Below are positions 22,926 to 24,301 of a DNA stretch of 64,000 nt, piece after piece. The notes beneath the pieces were generated by a model. The model did no database searches. It was given only the letters and a program-made list of their open reading frames with translations, and was not told where the DNA came from. The stretch covers positions 124,001 to 188,000 of the forward strand of contig JAHJBC010000001.1 in the NCBI GenBank assembly GCA_018813765.1, read 5' to 3'. This DNA is from Gammaproteobacteria bacterium (lineage in GTDB: Bacteria > Pseudomonadota > Gammaproteobacteria > Burkholderiales > Gallionellaceae). How positions within the stretch are numbered: the stretch's first letter is position 1; every line of letters starts with the position of its first letter. A program made the translations under genes and the position numbers.

Positions 22926-22962
22926 CCCTCTCCCTCTGGGAGAGGGCTAGGGTGAGGGAGCT
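22926..22962. repeat. palindromic GC-rich repeat (CCCTCTCCC-TCT-GGGAGAGGG...GGTGAGGG), intergenic copy
   Basis: Same core as intragenic copies in polA, gcvPA, gcvPB. Confidence 0.8.
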
Positions 22963-22994
22963 CTCCTTGCACTCCACCACACTTCAAAACCAAC

Positions 22995-23228
22995 ACCGTC
23001 GGGGGTAGCCCGACAGCTAGTCACTTTTCTCGTCTTGCCGAGAAAAGTAACCAAAAGAGGGCGCCCCCGGTTTGCCGCCCCTTCAGGGTTCCCTCGATAT
23101 TTCGCCAACAAGCGGGGCTGCGCAACTCGCCCTAGCGGGGCACACAAGACGTGCCCCACCGCGGAGCTCGGACAGTGCTCGCCTAAAGCTCCGCTTGTTG
23201 GTGAAATATCGAGGCGGCGCACAGGGGA
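22995..23228 (+). repeat. left arm of 234 bp inverted repeat
   Basis: Near-identical in reverse complement to 24000-24233 (about 11 mismatches by eye). Confidence 0.9.
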
Positions 23229-23365
23229 AAGAAAGTCAAAACCCAAAATCACAGCGCGGGCACTACGTGCCCACGCTATACGTTATGCATCATGATTGGC
23301 CAAATCAATTTGGCTCCAGTACATTGCGCCTTAGTAGTTCCCAAACATATCTGAGGAGAAGAAAA

Positions 23366-23920
23366 ATGAGCAGTCGGTTAAGCTTGATCGCTATTCTTTT
23401 CATAATTGCCATTTGTAACTCTGACAAACTTTATGCAGCAGAAACAAACATGCAATATGTTGGCGACTTTGAATATGTTGATAGCAGCGAAGGATCCTGC
23501 GATGGGTATATCGTTGCGCTCTGGAAAATGAGTGATTCACTTGTTGGTTACCTGAGACACTACAGCAGCGAATGCTCGGACCCGCGCACAGGTATTATTG
23601 AAGATGTACAACACAATCCTTCAACTGGGAACTTAACTTTCAAAGTTAAACTATGGGCAAGTAGCTGTATCGCTTTTAAAGAGGGTAGATGCGTATACTC
23701 GAAAGACCTTCTCACTTTCAAAGGGCTATTGAAAGCTGAAAATCTTTCGGGTTCAATTTCGTGGTACAGCCTTGACCAAAAGAAGAACATATACCTTCAC
23801 CAAGTATCTCTAAAGCTTAAAAAAGATAGCGATGAGTATGATAAGAGTCCAGCAAGCTACGATATGTTTGTTAAAGAGTGGAAAGAAGTATTTGGGCCAA
23901 AATGGAACTCTCCAGATTAA
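23366..23920 (+). CDS. secreted hypothetical protein, cargo of repeat-bounded cassette
   Basis: ATG after GAGGAGAAGAAAA; signal peptide MSSRLSLIAILFIIAICNSDKLYAAE; visibly AT-richer than flanks. Confidence 0.75.
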   Translation: MSSRLSLIAILFIIAICNSDKLYAAETNMQYVGDFEYVDSSEGSCDGYIVALWKMSDSLVGYLRHYSSECSDPRTGIIEDVQHNPSTGNLTFKVKLWASSCIAFKEGRCVYSKDLLTFKGLLKAENLSGSISWYSLDQKKNIYLHQVSLKLKKDSDEYDKSPASYDMFVKEWKEVFGPKWNSPD

Positions 23921-23943
23921 GTGAATATAATTCCAGAATATTA

Positions 23944-23967
23944 GGAAGGGCAACTTGTTGCCCTTCC
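23944..23967. terminator. GGAAGGGCAAC-TT-GTTGCCCTTCC hairpin downstream of cargo gene
   Basis: Perfect 11 bp stem 24 nt after the stop codon; poor U tract. Confidence 0.5.
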
Positions 23968-23999
23968 CTCGCATTTAAGGTTCTGGTTTGCAGTATCCC

Positions 24000-24233
24000 T
24001 CCCCTGTGCGCCGCCTCGTTATTTCGCCAGCAAGCGGGGGTTTAGGCGAGCACTGTCTGAGCTCCGCGGTGGGGCACGTCTTGTGTGCCCCGCTAGGGCG
24101 AGTTGCGCAGCCCCGCTTGTTGGTGAAATATCGAGGGAACCCCGAAGGGGCGGCAAACCGGGGGCGCCTTCTTTTGGTTACTTTTCTTGGCAAGACAAGA
24201 AAAGTGACTAGCTGTCGGGCTACCCCCGACGGT
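24000..24233 (-). repeat. right arm of 234 bp inverted repeat
   Basis: Reverse complement of 22995-23228. Confidence 0.9.
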
Positions 24234-24268
24234 TTTGTGGCGCGCAACGCGCGCCAGTATTTGATTCA

Positions 24269-24296
24269 CTGGATTCCGGCCTCCACCGGAATGACG
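24269..24296. repeat. solitary end of MITE-like family (degenerate)
   Basis: CTGGATTCCGGCCTCCACCGGAATGACG, differing from the TIR consensus in the loop. Confidence 0.8.
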
Positions 24297-24301
24297 GAGC
24301 G

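Follow-up and report, generated by a model that had tools for sequence, protein, structure and literature searches.

The window, a stretch of 64,000 nucleotides from a Gallionellaceae genome, carries between VF530 and polA a single AT-rich gene enclosed by two long inverted repeats, which raises the question of what kind of element this is and how it came to stand there. The preliminary description of this DNA had offered two answers, a passively mobilised single-gene cassette and a hotspot created by recombination between repeats, and both appear to be true together. Beyond that description lie the size of the family, the covarying folds of its multicopy arms, the empty sites, the scars and the reassortment of arms. 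It is probable that the window element is a member of a large non-autonomous family of single-gene cassettes in which the arms are the shared recombination ends.

The repeat search placed the two arms at 22991-23243 (inward-reading strand +) and 23985-24237 (inward-reading strand -), each 253 nt long, 93% complementary to one another and separated by 741 nt. The near-identical inverted arms described earlier are real; over the 234 bp then noted, the identity was 95%, with about 12 mismatches. The family matches also identified both as copies of a folded repeat of about 240 nt, the family core of the left arm lying at 22989-23094, and the repeat search detected a long hairpin inside each arm. 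The ends have the sequence CCAACACCGTCGGGGG. Outer hairpins were read from the sequence at 22998-23014 on the + strand of the left arm (GTCGGGggtagCCCGAC, a type which, standing alone, forms the "scar" at other sites) and at 24214-24230 on the - strand of the right arm (GTCGGGctaccCCCGAC as written on the + strand). Inside the arms, two palindromes were read, GCGcGGGCACtacGTGCCCaCGC at 23254-23276, 5′ of the cargo gene, and GGAAGGGCAACTTGTTGCCCTTCC at 23944-23967, 3′ of it, and both positions are kept in other cassettes. The gene had been credited with a hairpin terminator of its own; the palindrome at 23944-23967 is indeed perfect, but it is followed by no good T-run and has a similar counterpart on the 5′ side, at 23254-23276, which was itself picked up as a terminator-like stem on the - strand. 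An Rfam search of the window region gave no match in the arms and one sub-threshold match outside them.

The outer flanks of the element are also repeats. The sequence ccctctccctctgggagagggctagggtgaggga at 22926-22959 on the + strand, recognised by reading and by comparison of element ends, belongs to a hairpin family that often abuts arms, and tggattccggcctccaccggaatgacgg at 24270-24297 on the - strand, beside the polA stop, is common to the polA sites of G016, G045 and G048. The mirrored flanks were considered as halves of one target palindrome, an explanation that found no support, as each side carries a complete hairpin module.

A single gene was found between the arms, as had been described: an ORF at 23366-23920 on the + strand, encoding a likely secreted orphan of 184 aa with an N-terminal hydrophobic stretch. 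Its low GC was likewise borne out (0.38-0.43 across the cargo segment vs 0.55-0.63 in the surroundings), and the reported absence of a transposase between the arms held. Upstream of the gene, at 23300-23326 on the + strand, lies a leader, CCAAATCAATTTGGCTCCAGTACATTG, which agrees at 22 of 27 positions with the leader TCAAAACAATTCGACTCCGGTACATTG of many other cassettes. The cargo protein matched nothing in Pfam or PHROG, nor was it matched in the plasmid collection; a single-sequence fold prediction gave an N-terminal helix and about eight strands, at a mean pLDDT of 49, a prediction too weak to serve as a query for similar folds. Conservation of the gene at this locus in arm-free relatives was not seen: only one distant homologue turned up among 60 relatives, in G009, with 27% identity, at a different locus and without arms. 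This homologue (L087:1381-2110, on G009:C22) stands in an apparent integron attC array with GTTGGGC ends and the hairpin GGACTCG/CGAGTCC, and no integron integrase over the cut-off was found in G009. Arm cassettes and integron cassettes may draw on one gene pool.

The arms turned out to be a multicopy family. Twenty arm matches were obtained in the genome of the window, with the outer ends outward in every neighbouring pair listed. The arm was present in 26 of 41 relatives, among them all but one of the 25 genomes of the genus in that search, its own included; the genus here comprises the Sideroxydans/Sideroxyarcus relatives, and the labels from G000 (the genome of the window) upwards denote the sampled genomes. 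Across the order, matches at E below 1e-9 occurred in 58 of 399 genomes and 29 of 158 genera, the named hosts including Gallionella, Sideroxydans, Thiobacillus, Polaromonas and Collimonas. The arm was absent from the 72,556 plasmids and 50,697 phages searched. A profile of the core, about 109 bp long, retrieved 279 distinct arm sequences from the DNA fetched. Many of the sampled genomes are MAGs with breaks inside arms, and the assembly of the window itself has contigs that end inside them (G000:C4:37, C5:8365, C8:37 and C11:1); counts from draft genomes therefore probably miss some cassettes.

These copies were not scattered at random. Among 97 distinct neighbouring pairs at most 2.5 kb apart, 91 were convergent, that is, with the outer ends outwards, six were tandem and none was divergent; the count is not unbiased because part of the pairs came from regions chosen for a suspected pair, and the unselected lists show the same orientation. 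The distances within pairs fell into two classes. Short elements of about 460-580 bp are GC-rich and hold two palindromes and no gene, and long elements of 0.9-1.9 kb hold one gene, occasionally two small ones, in an interior with a GC of about 0.45-0.50 vs 0.55-0.60 outside. The layout of a cassette is a folded arm, a short palindrome, often a promoter-like leader, one gene, a second palindrome and the inverse arm.

Alignment of 32 arms yielded a consensus fold of 46 pairs, 23 of which showed changes on both sides. In this fold 98.5% of the cells were paired, vs 86.0% (sd 0.5) in shuffled and 35-49% in slid controls, and 193 cells carried two-sided compensatory changes vs 62 in the shuffles. 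G-U cells outnumbered A-C cells by 63 to 6, a count inflated by related sequences, and this excess points to the strand read from the flank inwards as the one that folds. Two unpaired motifs, AACTCGC and GCTCA.ACA, were near-invariant; by eye, both are apparently kept in Thiobacillus arms, the inner stems of which otherwise differ in sequence.

The two arms of an element are seldom each other's closest kin. The partner was the nearest relative for only 7 of 120 arms, which speaks against concerted evolution of the pair, as of terminal repeats kept identical, as the rule. Median identity between partners was 0.66 in cargo elements and 0.63 in short elements; the nearest relatives of arms were typically 0.92-0.96 identical and often belonged to another element or species. 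Since partners are of different subtypes, each close to arms elsewhere, the arms have been reassorted between cassettes. The 93-95% identity of the pair in the window is unusual within the family. Judged from the sequences, the subtype pattern differs from that of ordinary terminal repeats and is the one to be expected if arms recombine within a common pool, and the reassorted arms would fit exchange by homologous recombination after transformation.

With polA as the anchor, the site of the window element was recovered in 30 of 34 genomes of the genus. The comparison was between related species, with polA proteins 85-99% identical, and not between strains, which leaves it uncertain when and in which direction each change took place. 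The VF530-polA interval proved to hold other genes in other species, and in about ten congeners an arm element with a different cargo occupied it. Apart from the secreted orphan of G000, these cargos were a lipoprotein in G014, unrelated orphans in G007, G043 and G017, HEPN-like proteins in G045 and G019, the likewise HEPN-like AbiU2 in G024, a 259-aa protein in G004, a DUF5677 protein in G015 and a CoiA_N protein in G013. The gene-free form was present in G006, G018, G022 and G048, and no arm was seen at the polA site in G020, G012, G002, G047 and G041. Orphan genes also lay beside polA outside arm pairs, in G018 (DUF3800), G006 and G022. The DUF3800 gene at the polA site of G018 (L256:3995-4828) is 91% identical in protein sequence to the L043 cargo and has no polA-side arm, so this cargo occurs both with and without arms.

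Two further sites behaved in the same manner. Site A carried different cargos in G000, G003, G045 and G014 and was empty in G008 and G044, where the neighbouring genes almost abut. Site B held a lipoprotein in G000, a KilA-N protein in G003, a secreted protein in G045 and one 236-aa orphan in both G024 and G013. Conversely, one cargo can occupy several sites. A cargo of 137/145 aa was found at two unrelated sites, in G024 (L049) and at site A of G003 (L080), and the two sequences are alike over L049 2365-3381, which is exactly arm to arm, and unlike outside. A RelA_SpoT cargo stood at three sites in three species, contig 10 of G005, site A of G014 and the polA site of G042, the copies being 88-92% identical in protein sequence. 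What varies from site to site and from species to species is thus the segment that runs from one arm to the other.

Scars were observed as well. At site B of G005 only CCAACACCGTCGGGGGTAGTCCGACGGTGTTGG, a solo palindrome, remains, and in G007 a deletion joins one arm end to the other arm. Allowing up to one mismatch, 15 solo palindromes were found in 10 of 34 genomes, two or three of them being ends of longer arms, and a reversed control pattern gave none. Such a palindrome is the expected product of a deletion between direct copies of CCCGAC (or GTCGGG) in the outer hairpins; at most sites it may be either a scar or a target that was never invaded. Neither a comparison of the ends of all elements nor one with the empty site A allowed a target-site duplication to be defined, the outer flanks being repeat modules too.

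These observations bear on whether the element is a classical non-autonomous transposon, MITE-like with cargo, the arms being terminal inverted repeats served by a transposase encoded elsewhere. The cassettes do, like MITEs, have terminal inverted repeats with no transposase inside; the mobile unit runs from arm to arm, empty sites exist, and gene-free forms of about 550 bp occur beside filled ones. Arm partners are usually of different subtypes, however, with a median identity of about 0.65, which is unlike repeats whose two copies a single transposase has to recognise together after every transposition, and the arms are folded and about 240 nt long. Moreover, no target duplication could be made out, there was no autonomous copy among the 44 cargos collected, and many species use the same sites. 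We regard this explanation as unlikely, and a shared pool of recombination ends as the reading to be preferred.

The 44 cargos are mostly unrelated, with a few related pairs. A Pfam scan was run on 41 proteins, namely the window cargo, 39 others of the set and the site A cargo of G045, and ten of them passed the curated cut-off: KilA-N, RelA_SpoT, DUF3800, HEPN_RiboL-PSP (two), HEPN_AbiU2 (two, one in Thiobacillus), DUF5677, CoiA_N and Mrr_N. None of the 41 was a transposase or recombinase. The RelA_SpoT cargo matched the candidate defence family PDC-S33 at 1.6e-104, and PADLOC gave no match for nine other cargos tried. By these similarities several cargos, the HEPN/AbiU2, RelA/SpoT-like PDC-S33, KilA-N and Mrr_N proteins, would be of kinds found in phage defence.

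Candidate enzymes were sought in the same genomes. Movement of the arms as single-stranded hairpins by a tyrosine (Y1 HUH) transposase of the RAYT/TIRYT type would agree with the GTAG-tagged hairpins among the outer flanks of elements and with the Y1 transposases of 20 of 34 genomes, and long terminal inverted repeat families flanking Y1 transposases have been described (PMC3733652). Yet the arms are much longer than REPs, and no Y1 gene lies between or beside them in the genomes compared; G004, complete in one contig, has 16 arm matches and neither a Y1 match nor an integrase over the cut-off. The presence of neither the RAYT nor the integron integrase tracks the arms, as G004 illustrates, so that neither is supported as the mover, and we think it very improbable that the cassettes depend on a Y1 transposase.

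Nor does it seem at all likely that the arms are independent intergenic repeats, 3′-end structures of fixed orientation that act as terminators or stabilise mRNA, with orphan genes between them by chance. That idea would explain why elements almost never stand between divergent genes (1 of 35), why it is the strand running inwards from the flanking gene that folds, and why the outer flanks are repeats too. It leaves unexplained the homology, from arm to arm, between two unrelated sites with the same cargo, the 44 cargos with one gene each, matching inner palindromes and a leader, and the convergence of 91 of 97 pairs, which holds even where the genes flanking the element are tandem. It is very improbable that the arms are folded-strand recombination sites of an integron integrase: 15 of 34 genomes of the genus, that of the window among them (G000:C3:726-1667), encode full-length integrases over the cut-off, the one relative of the window cargo lies in an apparent attC array (G009), the range of cargos is similar to what chromosomal integrons carry and the arms fold on one strand, but the complete genomes G004 and G024 have many arms and no integrase over the family cut-off, the arms are inverted around single genes rather than repeated directly in an array, the polA site has no array, and the flanking palindromes do not, by eye, fit the attC core-site consensus.

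Because neither integrase nor Y1 transposase tracks the arms, homologous exchange through the arms is proposed as the main process, and the reassorted arms and fixed sites would point the same way. Incoming DNA with another cassette would recombine through the conserved arms already present at a site, and the cargo would be swapped. The source of such DNA would most likely be chromosomal DNA taken up by transformation, as no plasmid or phage copies were found. Slippage or deletion between the short direct repeats of the arms (CCCGAC/GTCGGG) would remove a cassette and leave a solo hairpin. First arrival at an empty site, the weakest step of this scheme, might require a putative trans-acting enzyme for which the arms, folded as single strands, are the substrate. 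The host would benefit by access to accessory genes, several of phage-defence kinds.

The same sites carry different packets in different species, and the whole therefore looks like a gene-exchange system with no recognisable transposase or integron array. The elements form a new variety of mobile gene cassette that occurs widely in the Burkholderiales. A wider proposal, possible and put forward here only tentatively, is that these cassettes constitute a wholly new kind of exchange platform of Burkholderiales chromosomes, in which the long folded arms of each inverted pair serve as universal adaptors, or as recombination sites on which a putative enzyme acts in single-stranded form, and any member of a large pool of single-gene cassettes, often defence-like, can be swapped into dozens of fixed intergenic sites with no linked recombinase. 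No published description of such elements was found in the open-access literature, a scope that excludes most subscription journals and all preprints.

Several known systems share part of this behaviour. The minimal mobile elements of Neisseria have a variable gene content, flanked by conserved genes at set places in the chromosome, and recombination is the presumed means of their exchange. The arm cassettes resemble them in placing different genes between the same conserved neighbours (the polA site, sites A and B), but in minimal mobile elements the homology lies in the conserved flanking genes, whereas every arm cassette is enclosed by a folded repeat that is dispersed and inverted, by which one cassette can occur at many sites. 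With integron gene cassettes they share single mobile accessory genes, folded recombination sites and a reused platform, and differ from them in the inverted arm pair of each gene, the lack of an array and of IntI dependence, and the many dispersed sites. Correia elements and other MITEs are like the gene-free form of about 550 bp, being intergenic inverted repeats with no ORF; in the present family no target duplication could be made out, and long elements have genes between these same arms. REP/BIME, RAYT and TIRYT-associated inverted repeat families (PMC3733652) likewise consist of hairpins scattered through intergenic DNA as inverted pairs and intermixed with other repeats, but the arms described here are about 240 nt long with a multi-helix fold, one-gene cargo and no Y1 link. 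Mobile insertion cassettes and TIMEs (PMC4619425, PMC4133298), which are derived from Tn3, also hold cargo between inverted repeats with no transposase; they have short Tn3-type ends served by a Tn3 transposase, in contrast to the long, folded ends of unequal subtype found here. The name minimal mobile element, for the Neisseria system above, appears for example in PMC2649163 and PMC8627216.

If the cassette reading is true, it would explain the spread of many lone orphan and defence-like genes in chromosomes with no plasmid, phage or integron nearby, and it would add a class of mobile cassette that current annotation overlooks because it encodes no transposase. The arms offer a sequence handle for scanning genomes for new cassettes, which may yield new phage-defence genes, and as the same sites exist empty, scarred and filled, the mechanism can be tested directly.

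Some minor features were recorded along with the cassettes. The leader of about 27 nt precedes many cargos and also some genes without arms; it was therefore rejected as a cassette-specific motif, and probably acts as a promoter and does not belong to the mobile ends. A leader variant, CAATTCGACTCCGGTACCTTT, is multicopy in G045, G016, G005, G001 and G042, and on G005:C34 the distance between it and a Y1 transposase gene is about 70 bp. Further integron integrases of the genus are found in L267-L272. In the Thiobacillus elements L154, L190, L140 and L156, an inverted repeat of about 25 bp, GTCAAAACCAGGGTGGTGATGACTGG, just inside the arms replaces the palindromes, and in L154 it extends into cassette-specific sequence. 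Finally, a repeat of about 60 bp, GATGGAACTACTAGCCATTCGACTAGGCTG...CAGCCAAGTCGCTGGTTAT, was found inserted within the CCCTCTCCC/GGGAGAGGG hairpin repeats and is another small mobile repeat; its insertion places are the right flanks of L046 and L021 and the right end of L043.
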